Origin: a virus
Length of the DNA stretch: 43,297 bases
Direction: 5' to 3' (one strand)
Virus record (IMG/VR): IMGVR_UViG_3300032304_001187
Coordinates: 1-43,297 of that record
Position numbers and translations under genes: made by a program. Positions 2,703-26,734 of this stretch are shown in pieces. Each line of letters begins with the position of its first letter. Position 1 is the stretch's first letter. The notes beneath the pieces are model-generated. The model saw nothing but the letters and a program-made list of their open reading frames with translations. It did not search any database and was not told where the DNA came from.

Positions 2703-3125
2703 TTAGATGAATGCTTTAATATCACGAGGATCGCCTGTAACTCTGCCGATTAACTCATGGTCATTAAAGAACGTAAACAACGCTTTTCCTTTACAACCTT
2801 TGTCATCTTCAAAGTCCACTTCCCATCGGTCACCGCCCCATTTAGGTACTCGAACAAAGTCGCCTTTACGCGCCCAAGCACCTTCTGGCCAAGGTTGCAT
2901 CGTCTCACGCATTTTGAATGCGAGGGGACCAACTGCAATAACCTTACCGATCATCGTGTTCCATTTTTCTACTTCTTTCGTCTCTTCAGGAATAAATATA
3001 CCTGCTGTGGTAACTTTTTCCTTCACAGCTCTCAATTGAACGAGAACTCTAGCACCATACGGCGCCATTAACGGATCTATAACTGGAAACGCTTCTTCAA
3101 GCGTCTGTTCGATATCATTCGACAT
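2703..3125 (-). CDS. GroES-like co-chaperonin
   Basis: 140 residues from ATG 3125, with an AGGAG site 10 nt upstream. A TTG 18 nt further upstream is a weaker start. The core reads PYGARVLVQLRAVKEKVTTAG then IFIPEETKE, IGKVIAVGPLAF and KGDFVRVPKWGG. This matches the Cpn10 pattern of a first strand (P..DRVLV), a mobile loop ending in a hydrophobic GI(F)IP tripeptide, a GkVlAvGp strand and a GD.V strand. The protein is longer than bacterial GroES (about 97 aa), with extensions at both ends. T4 gp31 is the classic phage example: it pairs with host GroEL to fold the capsid protein. The location inside the head operon supports the same job here. Confidence 0.85.
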   Translation of the reverse strand: MSNDIEQTLEEAFPVIDPLMAPYGARVLVQLRAVKEKVTTAGIFIPEETKEVEKWNTMIGKVIAVGPLAFKMRETMQPWPEGAWARKGDFVRVPKWGGDRWEVDFEDDKGCKGKALFTFFNDHELIGRVTGDPRDIKAFI

Positions 3126-3303
3126 CTTTTCGTTTCTCCTCAAGTAGATTGTTTAAAACTTCCAAGGCTTTATTCAAGCCTATACTTTGCCCGACCAACC
3201 GCTGATAACTATCAAAATTGACACAGTTTCCATTCAACATGGAAGTGCCGATTTCTTTCTTTTCAGCTTCGATACGGGAAATCAGCTCGCTAATGAAATT
3301 CAT
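3115..3303 (-). CDS. small helical protein
   Basis: 62 residues. Its ATG (3303) overlaps the previous stop as TAATG, and its end overlaps the GroES-like gene by 11 nt, so it is translationally coupled on both sides. The sequence is predicted helical with Leu/Ile heptads (ELISRIEAEKKE and KALEVLNNLLEEKRK), suggesting a short coiled coil. No family recognised. The tight packing between head genes argues it is real and structural or assembly-related. Confidence 0.6.
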   Translation of the reverse strand: MNFISELISRIEAEKKEIGTSMLNGNCVNFDSYQRLVGQSIGLNKALEVLNNLLEEKRKDVE

Positions 3304-18997: not shown

Positions 18998-19158
18998 ACA
19001 AAGGTTGGAAAAACCGCATTCATGAGCGCGTATACATGGAGCACAAAAAAGAGCAACGTGATGCAAAATTGCAATTCGCTAAATTGCTTCGGCATCAAAT
19101 GGAGCAAGAGTACAAAGAATATTTAGACGAAGTAAAGGAGAAAAATGCAACCCACTAA
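18994..19158 (+). CDS. small charged helical protein
   Basis: 54 residues (MNKGWKNRIHERVYMEHKKE...). The start overlaps the upstream stop as ATGA and the end overlaps the next gene by 14 nt. It is rich in Lys, Glu, Gln and His and almost entirely predicted helix. No family recognised. Supported by its coupling on both sides. Confidence 0.48.
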   Translation: MNKGWKNRIHERVYMEHKKEQRDAKLQFAKLLRHQMEQEYKEYLDEVKEKNATH

Positions 19159-19882
19159 TTGGCTCATCTTGAATGAGTATCCCTTTGAACTGATTCCTGG
19201 AGAGGGACGTAACATGGAAGGCGGTGGTGTGTCGTACTACGATTACATCAACAAGCGTCCGACTGAAACAGGAAAGAATGTTCAGTGTATCGCGTGGCTT
19301 CTCAAGGATCTGAAAAAGGGCATGTCTGTCTGGGAACCCTTTGGCGGTGTCGGTGTCTTTGCTACTGCGGTTCAAGAAATACTGAAGCCCAAAGCGCACG
19401 TCATTCACGAGATTGACGAGACGTGCTTGCTTCAACTTGAGCACGCGCTGTCAAAATACAATGTTGCCATTGACAAGCAAGACGCGACGAAGGTTCTCGG
19501 CACGCAATACGCCGACGTGTTCGTTGTGGACTTCCCTCTGTTCTCTATGCTCAGATATCTCAAGGGTCGTTGGGAACCAGAGTTGCGCCGCATGACACTA
19601 CAACGCCCAAAGGCAATCATCATGACGGACGGTTCATCTTGTCGTTATCATCTTCAGTGGAAAAACTACAAGAAGGTGGACTCACGTATTGATGACACAC
19701 GCACCAGTTACGTATACGCGCTCTCAAGGCTGTTCTACGATCGCTATGGGTATTCAATCGTTGCCTGCGCGTTTCACGCTAACAGCTTCTATTATCGGCT
19801 TGAGAACGTACCGCCTAATCAAGCGCAGTTTATCAATTTCCCCGCAGGTTCAGCCAAAAACGGATTAAGGAGAGTCAAATGA
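19145..19882 (+). CDS. methyltransferase-like protein with atypical catalytic motif
   Basis: 245 residues, ATG after GTAAAGGAGAAAA. The core resembles a class I SAM-dependent methyltransferase: motif I as WEPFGGVGVFATAVQ, an acidic end of strand 2 (HVIHEIDETCLLQLEHAL), DATKVLGTQYADV, then VVDFPLFSML in the motif IV position. DNA base methylases usually have DPPY or NPPY there; here the prolines and aromatic are rearranged. So it may be a diverged DNA methylase, a methylase for another substrate, or inactive. It precedes the modification cluster by 2 kb. Confidence 0.62.
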   Translation: MQPTNWLILNEYPFELIPGEGRNMEGGGVSYYDYINKRPTETGKNVQCIAWLLKDLKKGMSVWEPFGGVGVFATAVQEILKPKAHVIHEIDETCLLQLEHALSKYNVAIDKQDATKVLGTQYADVFVVDFPLFSMLRYLKGRWEPELRRMTLQRPKAIIMTDGSSCRYHLQWKNYKKVDSRIDDTRTSYVYALSRLFYDRYGYSIVACAFHANSFYYRLENVPPNQAQFINFPAGSAKNGLRRVK

Positions 19883-20844: not shown

Positions 20845-21103
20845 AAAAGAATTAAGCCCACTGGCTAAGCAGTTACTTTCCGGATCTGGCGCACTAGACT
20901 TGTTTACGCAAAGTGAATTTGATGAAGCGTTGGCACTCGGTAAAGCCGAGATTATGAAAGTTGCAATTGACACAACCAAAACCGCTATCCGTATTGAGCG
21001 TAGCGAGTGTGCTAAGATTGCACGCGAGTGGGAAGGTGAGCTCGATTTAGAAGCGATTGCCAACGCGATTGATAACAGGTTAGCTTCTCAGGTGAACCAA
21101 TGA
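20834..21103 (+). CDS. small hypothetical helical protein
   Basis: 89 residues after AAAAAGGAAAAAAG. It begins MSNKKELSPLAKQLLSGSGALDLFTQSEF and continues as Ala/Glu/Ile-rich helices. It overlaps the next gene as ATGA. It is directly upstream of the modification cluster. No family recognised. Confidence 0.55.
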   Translation: MSNKKELSPLAKQLLSGSGALDLFTQSEFDEALALGKAEIMKVAIDTTKTAIRIERSECAKIAREWEGELDLEAIANAIDNRLASQVNQ

Positions 21104-22107
21104 TTGACTACCGCAAAACTGAAAACAGGATGGACTACTTCAAGTCCCTCTACAATTTGAATCTAGTTTTCAGAATTCATCCTGGACTGGTGTATCTCTA
21201 TATGCCTGAGCTCAAAAAATACTACGACTGGGATGACGAGACCGCGCTCTGGTTCGCTACAATCAATGGGCACACCCAAAACCCTATCACCTCTCTGAAG
21301 ATGCTTGAGTTTATGCCCTCTGTTGAGATGAGCAAAGCGGAGTGGAAAAAAGCAGACGAAATATTCAACAAGGAGTGGGCTAACCTGTCTTTTGATACTG
21401 ACCGCAATAAGCAGAAGAAAGACACGCTACTTGGTCTCTATTCTTACGCGCAGATGGTTAATCACAAGCCACAAGCAGACCTCTGGTCAGGCAAAACATA
21501 TCTTGAATATTGGGAGATAGCAAGAGCGATTAGAAGTTTCGGTCGTCTGTCCGCGTTTTCATATTTGGAGTATGTACAGATCAACGGCTTCGGCGCAGAT
21601 TGCACTACGCTCATGTTTAATGACTTTGACGGCTCGCGTTCTCATCGTAATGGAATGTTTTTCCTGCTAGGCAGAGATGAGCTCGTGTTTGACAAACGCC
21701 AGCCCAACTCACACGACGGTAAGTATCCGTACTTTGAAGAAACGTGCATAATGCTGGAAAACAAAGCGGATAAATTTATTCGTGAGTTCACTGAAGAATA
21801 CGGTTATAATTTACATACTTCAAAATTTACTCTTGAGTCTTGTTTGTGTCAGTTCAAGAATGGGTTTTTTAGTCGTCGGTATCCTGGAGTTTATTCGGAT
21901 ATGGGCTGGGATAGAATCAAGTGGTATGATAATCGTAATATGGATAAATATACAGAACCATTCAAAGCAATTCGTGCGCAGCATCTACCTGACTGGCTTA
22001 GGGAAGAATGCGAGAAAGATGTCGTTCCTCGTAAGGTCAAAGCGAGCATGTTCGCTGAGACTGGTAAACCATTCCGCGGTGAATATTTGCTGGAGAAAGA
22101 ACAATGA
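21100..22107 (+). CDS. unrecognised 335-aa protein at head of modification cluster; candidate base-modifying transferase
   Basis: 335 residues, ATGA coupling to the preceding gene. The sequence is rich in Tyr, Trp, Phe and charged residues, mixed alpha/beta, without transmembrane segments, signal peptide or P-loop. Notable segments are FRIHPGLVYLYMPELKKYYDWD, a central helical ADLWSGKTYLEYWEIARAI, then FGADCTTLMFNDFDG, HDGKYPYFEETCIM and FTLESCLCQFKNG with a RRYPGVYSDMGWDR end. The size and its place just before a 5-hmdU kinase-like gene and a hydroxymethylase-like gene make an amino-acid:DNA transferase or related base-tailoring enzyme plausible. This is inference from context only; no motif proves it. 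Confidence 0.55.
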   Translation: MIDYRKTENRMDYFKSLYNLNLVFRIHPGLVYLYMPELKKYYDWDDETALWFATINGHTQNPITSLKMLEFMPSVEMSKAEWKKADEIFNKEWANLSFDTDRNKQKKDTLLGLYSYAQMVNHKPQADLWSGKTYLEYWEIARAIRSFGRLSAFSYLEYVQINGFGADCTTLMFNDFDGSRSHRNGMFFLLGRDELVFDKRQPNSHDGKYPYFEETCIMLENKADKFIREFTEEYGYNLHTSKFTLESCLCQFKNGFFSRRYPGVYSDMGWDRIKWYDNRNMDKYTEPFKAIRAQHLPDWLREECEKDVVPRKVKASMFAETGKPFRGEYLLEKEQ

Positions 22108-22319
22108 ACGCATACGAATTGGCAGATAAATTAAACGAATGGTATAACTTTTCTCACGAAAATATGTGTAATGAAGCTGCTCAAATGCTTCGTCAACAAG
22201 CAGACGAATTAACTGAAGCTGGGCATATGATTGGTGTGTTGCGCGAGTACATTTCTGACCTAGAAAAGGGGTTGGAGTCTTCGATCAAATTAAACAAGGC
22301 ACAAGCGGAGAGACAATAA
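22104..22319 (+). CDS. small helical hypothetical protein
   Basis: 71 residues, ATGA overlap. It begins MNAYELADKLNEWYNF and contains NEAAQMLRQQADELTEAGHMIGVL, a pattern common in small early phage proteins of unknown function. It is helical throughout, with a likely coiled-coil end. Confidence 0.58.
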   Translation: MNAYELADKLNEWYNFSHENMCNEAAQMLRQQADELTEAGHMIGVLREYISDLEKGLESSIKLNKAQAERQ

Positions 22320-22321
22320 AA

Positions 22322-22912
22322 ATGAATGTTATTCTCAGTCTAAGAGGAACTAGCGGAAGCGGTAAGACTACCGTAGCGCGCAAGTTCATTACGGATTACC
22401 CAGTCAAGGTTCTGCCTGACCCAAACAAGAAGAAGCATTGGGGATACGAAGTTGACTTGTCAAGCGAGGGTATCAAAGAGAAGCTCTACGTCATCGGCTC
22501 TTATGAGAACACCTGCGGTGGAACTGACGGCATCAGTACGCAAGAAGAGATCGCAGACCGCGCCCTTGCCGCTCATCCTCGTGGGCATGTCTTGCTTGAA
22601 GGTTTATTGCTGAGCAAAGTTGGACCCAACGCGATTACCACGCAAATGTTGAAGCCGACTGGTGCTTATGTTGCCGCATATTTAGACACTCCGCTTGAGG
22701 TTTGTCTTGACCGAGTTCTTGCACGCAGGAAAGAAAGAGGCGACGAGCGCCCATTTAATCCTGAAAATACAATTAGCGCGCACAAGTCTACTTATGCTGC
22801 GTGCAAGAACCTTCACGAGATGGGCGGTGTTACCGTCGTCACTATTGATCATACTGATGCATTCAATCGGACTCTTGACATATTTAAGAAAGCTGAAAAT
22901 GGCACTTTATGA
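22322..22912 (+). CDS. P-loop kinase, probable 5-hydroxymethyl-dU DNA kinase
   Basis: 196 residues. Walker A is GTSGSGKTT at 9-17. A core strand HVLLEGLLLSK stands where many small-molecule kinases have their Walker B, and a lid-like basic segment VLARRKERGDERPF and YAACKNLHEM follow. The fold is that of nucleotide-type P-loop kinases. Phage 5-hmdU DNA kinases are small proteins of this class that phosphorylate the hydroxymethyl group of the base in DNA, activating it for substitution. The call rests on the neighbours: the next gene matches the helical partner domain of those kinases and the one after is a hydroxymethylase-like protein. A plain nucleotide kinase is the alternative. Confidence 0.65.
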   Translation: MNVILSLRGTSGSGKTTVARKFITDYPVKVLPDPNKKKHWGYEVDLSSEGIKEKLYVIGSYENTCGGTDGISTQEEIADRALAAHPRGHVLLEGLLLSKVGPNAITTQMLKPTGAYVAAYLDTPLEVCLDRVLARRKERGDERPFNPENTISAHKSTYAACKNLHEMGGVTVVTIDHTDAFNRTLDIFKKAENGTL

Positions 22913-23756
22913 GTATTTGATTGACTTCGTAAACGAACGCGAGTTAATTCGTAAGCGTAAGGAGTCAAGTTTGCAGCCGTACACGCAGAATGAAATCTTG
23001 AGTAGATATCGTTTCTGTAATGTTCGCAGGAAGGATGACCGCGTAACGCGCTGGTTGTTGCAGCATTACTACACGAATAATGTTGGTGATGTTTGGTTCA
23101 AAGCAATGATCGCCAGACTGATCAACTGGCCACCTACCTTGAAATATCTTCTTGAGAAAGATGCAATACCGCACCGCGTTGAGGAGTTTGACGTTGACTA
23201 CTTTATCACTTGCCTTGAAGAGCTCAAGAAAAAAGGCATCAAAATGTTTTCAAGCGCATATGTTGTTTACCCTACGCGCTTAGAAGGAACTAAGTCTGAG
23301 AATATGAGCAATCATATCATTGCGCCGTTGTCAATGAAAGCGCATGAAATCAGAGAAGCGATAAGCCGTAACTCAATTGAAGACGTTACGAATACTCTGG
23401 CGACTTGTTTCGGAATCAAAACATTCATAGCGGGTCAAGTGTCAGCTGATCTGACGTACATCATGGGGCAACTCCTCAATGCTGAGGATTTATATACCTA
23501 CGCGCCGAAAGGTCCAGGAAGCCAGCGTGGTCTCAATCGCCTTCATGACAGATACCTGAAAGCGTCCTTCGTAAAGAACCAGTTTACGGACGAATTGATG
23601 GATGCACGGGAAAAAATTGTAAGGTCAAATGCTGAGTTCAATGATCTTACTCTTCACGATGTTCAAAACGTAATGTGTGAGTTTGACAAATATCTGCGGG
23701 TCAAATTCAATGAAGGAAAGCCTAAGCAGATTTATAAACCAACAATGGAGTTTTAA
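22899..23756 (+). CDS. HMUDK_hel / aGPT-PPlase-type helical protein, probable DNA base hypermodification
   Basis: 285 residues from ATG 22899, overlapping the kinase end by 14 nt. An earlier frame start at 22695 lies inside the kinase gene and is rejected. The N-terminal part reads DFVNERELIRKRKE, QPYTQNEILSRYRFCNVRRKDDRVTRWL, then a helix with WPPTLKYLL. The signature 'F..ER..I..rR......T.D.IL..yrFcNv.Re.DrvtrWL' is the one I know from the helical domain of 5-hmdU DNA kinases and from alpha-glutamyl/putrescinyl-thymine pyrophosphorylase families. It is entirely helical. It probably acts with the kinase on hmdU in DNA, activating the base or swapping its phosphate for an amine or amino acid. 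Confidence 0.7.
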   Translation: MALYEYLIDFVNERELIRKRKESSLQPYTQNEILSRYRFCNVRRKDDRVTRWLLQHYYTNNVGDVWFKAMIARLINWPPTLKYLLEKDAIPHRVEEFDVDYFITCLEELKKKGIKMFSSAYVVYPTRLEGTKSENMSNHIIAPLSMKAHEIREAISRNSIEDVTNTLATCFGIKTFIAGQVSADLTYIMGQLLNAEDLYTYAPKGPGSQRGLNRLHDRYLKASFVKNQFTDELMDAREKIVRSNAEFNDLTLHDVQNVMCEFDKYLRVKFNEGKPKQIYKPTMEF

Positions 23757-23757
23757 A

Positions 23758-24732
23758 ATGGAAATAGCCGCAATAAACGTAAACGATCTTTTTGTAGAAG
23801 GACTCTGGCGATTCAAAACGTGTGGGGTGCTTAATCAAACCCGTAATGGTGAGGTATACAGGATTGATGAACCTGTCTTGACTAAGATAACTAACCCGAC
23901 TGAGCGTGTTTTGTTTCACGGTGGTCGAGATGCGAACCCAATCTTTCATCTGATGGAAAGCATCTGGATACTCGCGGGTCGTAATGATGTCGCGTTTTTA
24001 CAAAACTTCAATTCAAATATCGGTCAGTTCAGCGATGACGGCGTGCGGTTCAACGCGCCTTACGGTCACAGGATGCGTCGTCAATTCGGCTTTGATCAAT
24101 TGAAAGAGATTATTGATTTGATTAAGCACACCCCGAACACACGGCAAGCAGTTATGCAGCTTTGGGACACTTCAGACTTCAACAAGAGTACGCTTGACAA
24201 AGCCTGCAATACGTCAGTAATGTTTTCTGTCGTTAATGGTAAGCTGGATATGATGATCACAAACCGATCAAACGACTTCTGGTGGGGATACTGCGGGGCT
24301 AACCCAGTTCACTTTTCTATTATTCAGGAGTTCATTGCGATTGCCCTAGGCATTCCAGTCGGCATGTATTACACCGTATCAAATAATCTTCATCTTTACA
24401 CAAAGCTATACAACGCGCTACCTTTGATGCTTCAACCACCTACATCAAGCGAAGACTTTGATTACTATTCTACTGGTGCTGTCCAGCCTATGGATCTTTA
24501 TTACGATGACTGGGAGTCTTTCTTAGAAGAGTGTGAAGTGTTCTGCGAAGCACCGCTAGCGTACTACGACTATAAGCACGAGTTTTTCAGGCATGTTGCG
24601 CGCCCTATGGCGTATGTAAGCTACGACCGCAAGAACAAGATTAGCGACGGTAAAGTATACGCGAATCAGATTATGGCGTCTGATTGGAAAACAGCAGTTC
24701 AACAGTGGATCATGAGAAGGGAATCAAAATGA
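23758..24732 (+). CDS. thymidylate-synthase homologue, probable dUMP hydroxymethylase
   Basis: 324 residues from ATG 23758, GGAG 7 nt upstream. Thymidylate synthase landmarks are present: APYGHRMR at 100-107, the nucleophile Cys150 in DKACNTS, GKLDMMITNRSND at 161-173 (phosphate and base contacts), GANPVHFS at 180-187, and the ribose-contact segment NNLHLYTK near 210-216. The usual PPCH is ACN, and the LGxPFNI loop is replaced by WWGYCGANPVHF, a form I associate with phage pyrimidine hydroxymethylases. The retained Asn182 favours a uracil over a cytosine substrate. It would convert dUMP and methylene-THF to 5-hydroxymethyl-dUMP. Ordinary dTMP synthesis cannot be excluded. Confidence 0.8.
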   Translation: MEIAAINVNDLFVEGLWRFKTCGVLNQTRNGEVYRIDEPVLTKITNPTERVLFHGGRDANPIFHLMESIWILAGRNDVAFLQNFNSNIGQFSDDGVRFNAPYGHRMRRQFGFDQLKEIIDLIKHTPNTRQAVMQLWDTSDFNKSTLDKACNTSVMFSVVNGKLDMMITNRSNDFWWGYCGANPVHFSIIQEFIAIALGIPVGMYYTVSNNLHLYTKLYNALPLMLQPPTSSEDFDYYSTGAVQPMDLYYDDWESFLEECEVFCEAPLAYYDYKHEFFRHVARPMAYVSYDRKNKISDGKVYANQIMASDWKTAVQQWIMRRESK

Positions 24733-24977
24733 GCGCGAACAAACGACAAGTAGCAGGTAGTCATTACAAATCAACAATAGAACATTGGGACTACGTAGTG
24801 GCAAATGATCTTGATTACTTTCAGGCTCAGATTACTAAGTACGTCACCCGCTGGAAGAAAAAGAACGGAATGACTGACCTATTGAAAGCGCAGCACTTTC
24901 TTGAAAAGTATATTGAAGTTCACAACGCTAGTGAAAACGCTGGCGAAGATGCAAGTCCTGCTTACGTGAATCAATGA
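24729..24977 (+). CDS. DUF3310 protein (T7 gp1.7-like domain), possible nucleotide kinase
   Basis: 82 residues from ATG 24729 (ATGA overlap, AAGGGA site). An earlier in-frame start at 24684 lies inside the previous gene. The domain reads VAGSHYKSTIEHWDYV, then QITKYVTRWKKKNGMTDLLKAQHFLEKYIE, the DUF3310 pattern 'sHY......D.......KY..R..KK....DL.KA..yl'. T7 gp1.7, which contains this domain, is a nucleotide kinase acting on dTMP and dGMP. Placement right after the hydroxymethylase-like gene suggests it could raise hmdUMP toward the triphosphate. It is much shorter than gp1.7, so activity is uncertain. Confidence 0.75.
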   Translation: MSANKRQVAGSHYKSTIEHWDYVVANDLDYFQAQITKYVTRWKKKNGMTDLLKAQHFLEKYIEVHNASENAGEDASPAYVNQ

Positions 24978-26734
24978 AAACAATCGTAATCGATACCGAA
25001 GTATTCAAGAATCTGTTTCTGCTCTGCGGATTGATTCTTGAGACTGGTGACCGCTTTCATATCTGGGGTCATCAGGAAGATGCTTGCGAACGATTAAAAG
25101 AACTGATGAAGTCAAATAATACCTTCGTTACCTTTAACGGCAATCGCTATGACATGCCTGTCATTTCATATTTCATGACAGGTAAAACTACGTTGGAGAC
25201 GAAGGCGTTGGGTGACAAAATCATTCAGGAAAACCTGATGCCGTGGCAAGCGGAAAAGGAATACGGCTTCAGAATCCCGATGATTGACCATATTGATATC
25301 ATTGAGGTCGCGCCCAGCTTTGTTAGTTTGAAAACATATGGTGCGCGTATGAACATGCCTGTGATTCAAGATTTACCATTTCATCACGACTCTATCATTG
25401 CCGAAGATGACTTTGATGATGTCTTGAAATATTGCCACAATGACTTAGACACGACCGCTGAGTTATATAACAGGCTTCAGGGGCAACTGCAGCTTCGTGT
25501 TGAGATCAGTAAGGAGTATGGGTTTGATGCACGGTCTAAGTCGGACTCACAAGTAGCGGAATATATGTTCATGAAAAAGCTTAATTTGAAGAAGAAAGAG
25601 CCAGTCATACCTAAGTTCGTTAAATACGTAACTCCACCATTTATTGAGTTCAGAACACCAGCCCTGAAAGACCTTGAGCAACGTATAGCAGCGCATAACT
25701 TTGACGTAAAGGAAAGTGGTCACGTTGATTTGCCAGACTTCTTGAAGGACGATCTCGTTACGATTGGAAAGGGTGTTTATCAGATGGGCGTGGGCGGTTT
25801 ACATTCTCAGCACGACAGGAAGATTTGCCATGTTTCTGATGATGACTTTTGCGTAGTTGATTATGATGTGGCTTCGTACTATCCTGCGATCATGTTGAAC
25901 TGCAATCTGATCCCTATGAATACAGGTATAAAGTTCATTGAGGAATATCGTAAGGTTTTTCACAGAAGGCTGGAGGGAAAGCGTGCAAAGAATATGGTCA
26001 TCGCTGACTCGTTACGTATCGCGCTAAACGGAACATTCGGCAAGACCGCGAATAAGTTTTCGCCTCTTTACTCTCCGGACGTAATGATAAACATTACTTT
26101 GATCGGGCAGCTAACTCTGCTAAGTTTGATTGAGATTCTTGAATACCACAGGATTGAAGTCATATCCGCGAACACGGACGGAATCATGCTCTACTACAGG
26201 AAGAAAGGGCAAGCGGTAGTCGAAAACATAATTAAGCAGTTCAGTGAGAAGACAGGATTTATTTTTGAAGCAACACCATATCGGTGTGTCGCGTTGAAAG
26301 ACGTTAATAATTATTACGCAGTGAAAGGAGATCGTAGTGTTAAAATAAAAGGCATTTACAGCGAACCAACTCTCAGCAAGAACCCAACTGCACCTGTTGT
26401 ATCTAAGGCGGTAGCTAATTGGCTTTCTGAAGGAACACCATTTGAGGACACTCTTAAAAACGCTACACTAACTGATTTCATCAGCGTTAGGAATGTTACT
26501 GGAGGCGGTGTTCAGGACGATCAGTATCTTGGTAGAGTTGTGCGCTGGTATCAAACCACGGAACAATTGCCTCCGATTGTATATGCGTCAAACGGAAACA
26601 AAGTTGCCAAGACTGATGGTGCAAAGGCGTGCATGACTTTACCAAAAAATATTCCTGCGGATTTGAACTTTGATTGGTATTTTCAAGCTATAATAAAAAC
26701 TGTCAAGGATATTGGCGCAAGCAAGTATTTATAA
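24974..26734 (+). CDS. family B DNA polymerase
   Basis: 586 residues, a compact phage form, ATGA coupling. The 3'-5' exonuclease motifs are intact: Asp7/Glu9 in IDTEVF, Asn55 with Asp60 in FNGNRYD, and Tyr153/Asp157 in YCHNDLD. The polymerase domain has the G-G-x-H link at 274-277, motif A DVASYYP with Asp298, motif B RIALNGTFG (348-356), and motif C NTDG (400-403). Motif B has Arg in place of the usual Lys, and motif C has Asn400 for the first Asp while Asp402 is kept. It replicates the phage genome with the primase-helicase. Sitting directly after the modification genes, it presumably incorporates modified dUTP. Confidence 0.92.
   Translation: MKTIVIDTEVFKNLFLLCGLILETGDRFHIWGHQEDACERLKELMKSNNTFVTFNGNRYDMPVISYFMTGKTTLETKALGDKIIQENLMPWQAEKEYGFRIPMIDHIDIIEVAPSFVSLKTYGARMNMPVIQDLPFHHDSIIAEDDFDDVLKYCHNDLDTTAELYNRLQGQLQLRVEISKEYGFDARSKSDSQVAEYMFMKKLNLKKKEPVIPKFVKYVTPPFIEFRTPALKDLEQRIAAHNFDVKESGHVDLPDFLKDDLVTIGKGVYQMGVGGLHSQHDRKICHVSDDDFCVVDYDVASYYPAIMLNCNLIPMNTGIKFIEEYRKVFHRRLEGKRAKNMVIADSLRIALNGTFGKTANKFSPLYSPDVMINITLIGQLTLLSLIEILEYHRIEVISANTDGIMLYYRKKGQAVVENIIKQFSEKTGFIFEATPYRCVALKDVNNYYAVKGDRSVKIKGIYSEPTLSKNPTAPVVSKAVANWLSEGTPFEDTLKNATLTDFISVRNVTGGGVQDDQYLGRVVRWYQTTEQLPPIVYASNGNKVAKTDGAKACMTLPKNIPADLNFDWYFQAIIKTVKDIGASKYL

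Follow-up and report, generated by a model that had tools for sequence, protein, structure and literature searches.

The 43,297-base virus contig IMGVR_UViG_3300032304_001187 of IMG/VR, which we analyzed over its whole length and refer to as the window, carries a compact gene cassette that, taken as a whole, is quite probably best explained as a phage operon that hypermodifies thymidine by the amino-acid-type route. The record is linear and incomplete (relatives measure about 54.8 kb) and was compared with the genome-length relatives G001 (54.9 kb), G002 (54.8 kb), and G006 (54.0 kb); further loci are given L numbers. The initial annotation had described a P-loop kinase, a helical protein, a thymidylate synthase (TS) homologue, and a DUF3310 protein, contiguous and overlapping, directly before a family-B DNA polymerase (PolB). 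We confirmed this arrangement and found both peptides that had been quoted, YRFCNVRRKDDRVTRWL and WWGYCGANPVHF, but a fifth cassette gene had been overlooked, which starts at position 21100 and encodes a predicted amino acid:DNA transferase (ADDT). The four genes described initially are open, lie contiguously on the plus strand, and are translationally coupled by overlaps. Sequence homology gives good support to amino-acid-based hypermodification of thymidine. The route proposed earlier, by way of 5-hydroxymethyldeoxyuridine (5-hmdU), its phosphorylation in DNA, and substitution with an amino acid, stands on homology to phages M6, PaMx11, ViI, and phiW-14 and on the fold of 8z2m, while two of the gene roles assigned within it need revision.

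ADDT (21100-22107, plus strand, 335 amino acids) is predicted to be a transferase of the ViI type that acts on phosphorylated 5-hmdU (5-PmdU). Its product matched PF18724 in Pfam with an E value of 2.3e-9 and 37.8 bits, above the gathering score (cut-off 26.2), and phrog_3271 in PHROG at 5.7e-55. An AlphaFold2 model built from 17 clade members was all helical, with a pLDDT of 79.6 and a pTM of 0.80, and its best matches in the PDB were 8z2m and 8z2n (probability 1.00, TM 0.54/0.61), both structures of gp46, the PaMx11 5-PmdU glycinyltransferase; OGG1-type DNA glycosylases followed at far weaker levels. Neither ADDT nor the kinase matched PDB chains by sequence, and the ADDT relative surfaced by fold search alone. 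About 125 positions are invariant among the 17 members. The same Pfam family includes M6 gp51, PaMx11 gp46, Pam3_47, ViI Vi01_199, and a phiW-14 protein, and a tree of these enzymes places M6, PaMx11, Pam3, and phiW-14 opposite a ViI-type side in a fully supported split, with the window on the ViI side. A GS.S.RNG motif is common to the ADDTs of the window, ViI, RawrgerThat, and Montesquieu.

The P-loop kinase (22322-22912, plus strand) has the Walker A motif GTSGSGKT and is a predicted 5-hmdU DNA kinase, as its clade hidden Markov model (HMM) matched PaMx11 gp49 (1e-26), M6 gp54 (1e-10), phiW-14 (2e-7), and ViI Vi01_061c (5e-6). The predicted or known 5-hmdU DNA kinases M6 gp54, YuA gp13, PaMx11 gp49, and ViI Vi01_061c carry the wrong label 'terminase small subunit' in public records, and PHROG 800 (phrog_800) likewise. 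Separately, loci L133 and L135 (12888-13999) carry a 5-hmdU kinase-type gene in two tandem copies ahead of the helical protein.

The helical protein (HEL, 22899-23756, plus strand, starting at ATG 22899) had been taken for the amine transferase of the pathway. It belongs to PF18723 (Pfam E value 1.9e-42) and phrog_2396, and PF18723, formerly aGPT-PPlase1, now carries the name '5-hmdU DNA kinase, helical domain'; the transferase is instead the gene at 21100-22107. A transferase role for HEL is also less likely because proteins of this kind occur beside a TET-associated glycosyltransferase with no kinase detected. At L036 (3884-7006), L037, and L038 (9181-12710), genes for a TS homologue and DUF3310 accompany that of an HMUDK_hel protein; also adjacent is a TET-associated glycosyltransferase (PF20691) in L036 and a protein of similar appearance in L037 and L038, and no 5-hmdU kinase was detected in the stretches read of these three loci. 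HTVC023P-type pelagiphages also encode a TS with a helical protein, and in some members that region includes a glycosyltransferase (PMC9599517). These contexts suggest that HEL may be a 5-hmdU-DNA recognition module rather than a transferase.

The TS homologue (23758-24732, plus strand) is a predicted dUMP hydroxymethylase. It matched PF00303 (2e-21) and phrog_5131 (2e-102), retains the catalytic Cys as well as the Asn of dUMP-type enzymes, shares the motif RSND..WG..GAN..HF with M6 gp58 and PaMx11 gp51, and groups with the hydroxymethylase-type enzymes of these two phages; in sequence comparison with the PDB, a CMP 5-hydroxymethylase came closest. The loop WWGYCGANPVHF has counterparts in M6 (IWGAYGANAVHF) and PaMx11 (VWGALGANCVHF) and is therefore a signature of a phage TS subfamily rather than a peculiarity of the window. 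In some relatives, a YfbR-like 5'-deoxynucleotidase lies between TS and DUF3310. The DUF3310 gene (24729-24977, plus strand) and PolB (24974-26734, plus strand; phrog_1252, 6.8e-167) both start within ATGA overlaps. The DUF3310 protein matched PF11753 at 8.9e-7; T7 gp1.7, which is annotated as a nucleotide kinase, also falls in this family (4.5e-23), which suggests that the DUF3310 protein may have 5-hmdUMP kinase activity. Its clade HMM did not match T7 gp1.7, although both match PF11753.

The gene order ADDT-kinase-helical-TS-DUF3310-PolB is kept in about 90 IMG/VR loci (28 and 60 from two search rounds). ADDT, kinase, helical protein, and TS occur together in 56 of the 60 second-round loci, the remainder being truncated or of a different type (L085, L086). 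Compared with its closest relatives, the window showed a dN/dS of 0.04-0.08 for every gene, which indicates strong purifying selection. Conserved order and selection together argue that the cassette is not a chance assembly. At the DNA level, the cassette had no matches among phage records. Genes resembling HNH and GIY-YIG proteins of the homing endonuclease type lie within the cassette at L012 (6211-6879) and L084 (4703-5287).

Every enzyme of the pathway is assigned by homology, and we infer the order of its steps, the amino acid, the retention of its carboxylate, and the role of a methyltransferase-like gene (MT) located upstream of ADDT. The TS homologue would convert dUMP to 5-hmdUMP, which the T7 gp1.7-like DUF3310 protein and host kinases would raise to 5-hmdUTP for incorporation into DNA by PolB. 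Together with the helical protein, the P-loop kinase would then phosphorylate 5-hmdU in DNA to 5-PmdU, and ADDT would swap the phosphate for an amino acid. ViI attaches serine through oxygen, and M6 and PaMx11 attach glycine through nitrogen. Since the window ADDT groups with the ViI subfamily, our best guess by analogy is serine through oxygen. Because there is no step by a pyridoxal 5'-phosphate (PLP) decarboxylase, the carboxylate is probably kept, and MT probably alters the adduct or cooperates with ADDT. The amino acid should be attached to many thymines of the phage DNA, hiding it from host defences.

Carboxylate retention hinges on PALP, a family of PLP enzymes that includes M6 gp52 and ViI Vi01_182. 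If a PLP enzyme were encoded in the unsequenced part or supplied by the host, the final base would instead be decarboxylated, like the 5-NeOmdU of ViI. PALP does lie 5' of ADDT in 36 of the 60 related loci. Most copies adjoin ADDT, though the distance can reach 5-8 kb and the copy in L101 is on the opposite strand; PALP is also present in G001 and L029. Whole-record searches, however, found no PALP in the window record, G002, G006, or G007. The window ends map to the capsid gene and holin region of G002, where the intervening 11-12 kb encode head, tail, and unknown proteins and no recognizable modification enzyme. As this part of G002 is structural, the genome is probably PALP-less, and we consider a decarboxylated base unlikely. 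The PLP decarboxylase required for M6- and ViI-type products (5-NedU and 5-NeOmdU), and the radical S-adenosylmethionine (SAM) enzyme required in addition for 5-NedU, had no match in the incomplete record, in G002, or in G006. tblastn detected no relatives of radical-SAM, flavin adenine dinucleotide (FAD), acetyltransferase, Nmad5, or Tet_JBP proteins in the window, G001, or G002, and thus no match to the FAD lyase and acetyltransferase of PaMx11-type products (aminomethyl- and acetylaminomethyl-dU). The earlier statement that no PLP, radical-SAM, or flavin enzyme is visible, and that the phage makes do with fewer genes in this respect, therefore holds for this record, with the qualifications that the record is incomplete and that MT had been missed. 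The simple adduct predicted with it is plausible but unproven, because a gene of a family that nearly always neighbours ADDT lies upstream.

That gene, MT (19145-19882, plus strand, 245 amino acids), encodes a class I SAM-dependent methyltransferase-like protein and is a candidate partner of ADDT or tailoring enzyme by its motifs, fold matches, and linkage. Among 17 family members, the invariant residues E64-G68-G70, D91, D113 (nearly), D129, and D162 fit class I methyltransferase motifs, in the pattern E..(F/Y)(G/A)G.G, D, D, D. MT itself matched nothing in Pfam or PHROG, and RrnaAD was matched weakly by 2 of the 17 members, both distant. When the MT profile was compared with PDB chains, the best hits were CD8 chains (immunoglobulin domains), which we judged spurious, with methyltransferases at E values of 0.13 or worse.

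A profile search of IMG/VR returned 33 MT loci. In 30 of them the contig also carries ADDT, and the remaining three contigs stop less than 500 bases from MT. The two genes directly adjoin in 27 loci, often overlapping by the four bases ATGA, and a PALP gene alone separates them in two others. The ADDTs so paired are 32-59% identical. The MT-ADDT pair is found with TS, kinase, and helical protein, and also with ParB, Tet_JBP, and Ploopntkinase3; it thus accompanies ADDT whatever the source of 5-hmdU, from which MT would act at or after the ADDT step. It is possible, if still tentative, that MT is a dedicated SAM-dependent hypermodification enzyme working with ADDT, for example by N-methylating or esterifying the attached amino acid, and common to the TS-based and Tet_JBP-based pathways. 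If so, the phage DNA would bear a methylated, carboxylate-bearing amino-acid adduct of thymine, an undescribed class of DNA base. An ordinary orphan or broken DNA methyltransferase, outside the thymidine pathway, would also present class I motifs without a curated family, and the motif IV-like DFPxxS of MT could derive from DPPY. Such a gene is nevertheless improbable in view of the linkage to ADDT across both pathway types. Moreover, the sole MT match among 50,697 phage records was in Pam3, also an ADDT phage, and a single stringent peptide pattern confirmed no relative in 84,980 bacterial and archaeal genomes.

The idea that MT replaces PALP as a general rule was ruled out, as L131-L133 have both. 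In an observation of its own, L147, L149, L153, and L154 contain (ParB)-Tet_JBP-MT-ADDT-Ploopntkinase3 operons, suggestive of thymidine hypermodification from in-DNA oxidation; the Tet_JBP and kinase genes of L154 are on the opposite strand, and ParB was not seen in L153.

Several points weigh against an amino-acid operon with an MT partner. The window ADDT is divergent from 8z2m (Foldseek E value 6.6e-3, 13% identity) and very distant from the ViI ADDT, which sits on a long branch in the tree; to our knowledge, ViI is the only phage with a ViI-type ADDT for which the attached amino acid is known. Of the HMUDK and aGPT-PPlase profiles to which the initial annotation had pointed, the helical protein matched its own clearly, but the kinase matched PF18748 (HMUDK) at 3.8e-4, below the gathering score. 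The top Foldseek matches of MT are all SAM methyltransferases, but they come from a poor model (pLDDT 52), and in the window 1.2 kb and three small open reading frames (ORFs) separate MT from ADDT. A tailoring gene could also be located in the unseen 11-12 kb. Finally, the cassette might end at 5-hmdU or its phosphorylated form, with ADDT inactive or acting on another substrate, since ADDT is divergent and phosphorylation by itself is enough to block some restriction enzymes (PMC7653180), but this is very unlikely for a gene that is open, has a dN/dS of 0.065, is present wherever the cassette is complete, and keeps its many invariant positions.

The pathway is already known; the window carries a compact, PALP-less, PolB-linked variant of it with an MT-like partner. 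The Pseudomonas phages M6/YuA encode ADDT (gp51), PALP (gp52), radical SAM (gp53), kinase (gp54), helical protein (gp55), Nmad5 (gp56), TS (gp58), and DUF3310 (gp61). Like M6/YuA, the window has ADDT, kinase, helical protein, TS, and DUF3310 just ahead of a DNA polymerase. M6 additionally has PLP, radical-SAM, Nmad5, and HD proteins, a glycine-side ADDT, and PolA, whereas the window has no such tailoring genes, a ViI-side ADDT, PolB, and MT. The Pseudomonas phage PaMx11 (ADDT gp46, FAD gp47, acetyltransferase gp48, kinase gp49, helical gp50, TS gp51) provides the characterized kinase and TS nearest to those of the window and an ADDT of the same fold, but that ADDT is in the other subfamily, and the window lacks the flavin lyase and the acetyltransferase. 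The Salmonella phage ViI (kinase Vi01_061c, TS Vi01_060c, helical Vi01_130c, PALP Vi01_182, ADDT Vi01_199) shares the ADDT subfamily and differs in having its genes scattered over 157 kb, PALP present, and no MT found.

The Pseudanabaena phage Pam3 (Pam3_39, 43, 46-53) resembles the window in having ADDT, a small ORF, kinase, helical protein, and TS in one run, and it is the sole described phage with an MT homologue (Pam3_39, 28-29% identity). What sets it apart from the window are its genes for PLP, photolyase/radical-SAM-like, and Nmad5 proteins, its PolA, and an ADDT on the glycine side. The Mycobacterium phage RawrgerThat and the Rhodococcus phage Tonitrus, arranged ParB-Tet_JBP-ADDT-P-loop kinase, share the ViI-type ADDT, with the kinase adjoining it; there, Tet_JBP oxygenase hydroxylates thymine in DNA, whereas the window would proceed via the TS homologue. 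We found no earlier description of the MT-like partner in literature that was partially covered, so that a prior mention is possible. The MT-ADDT pair points to a pathway enzyme outside the curated families and annotations examined. The cassette is small enough for one expression plasmid, which makes its chemistry directly testable. The PALP-less lineage predicts an amino acid retained on DNA, and the presence or absence of PALP switches at least 7 times on the ADDT tree, which amounts to a natural experiment.

Between ADDT and the kinase, the window has a 71-amino-acid ORF with no assigned function (22104-22319, plus strand). This is a variable spot in relatives, either empty (L008, L028) or filled with other small ORFs; at L010 (2468-3049) it holds a 2OG-Fe(II) oxygenase (PF13640), another candidate tailoring enzyme. 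At L031 (6709-8017), a Gly_transf_sug glycosyltransferase and a second glycosyltransferase-like gene lie immediately 5' of ADDT. In the PALP-less relatives L068 (9046-9585), L083 (8830-9366), and L070 (1635-2186), a conserved protein of about 180 amino acids is encoded between DUF932 and ADDT; the L068 copy had no Pfam match, and by eye the protein looks like phage pyrimidine-dimer-glycosylase-like proteins. Elsewhere in the window, a GroES-like co-chaperonin (PF00166, 8e-8) is encoded at 2703-3143 amid structural genes and is kept in G001 and G002.

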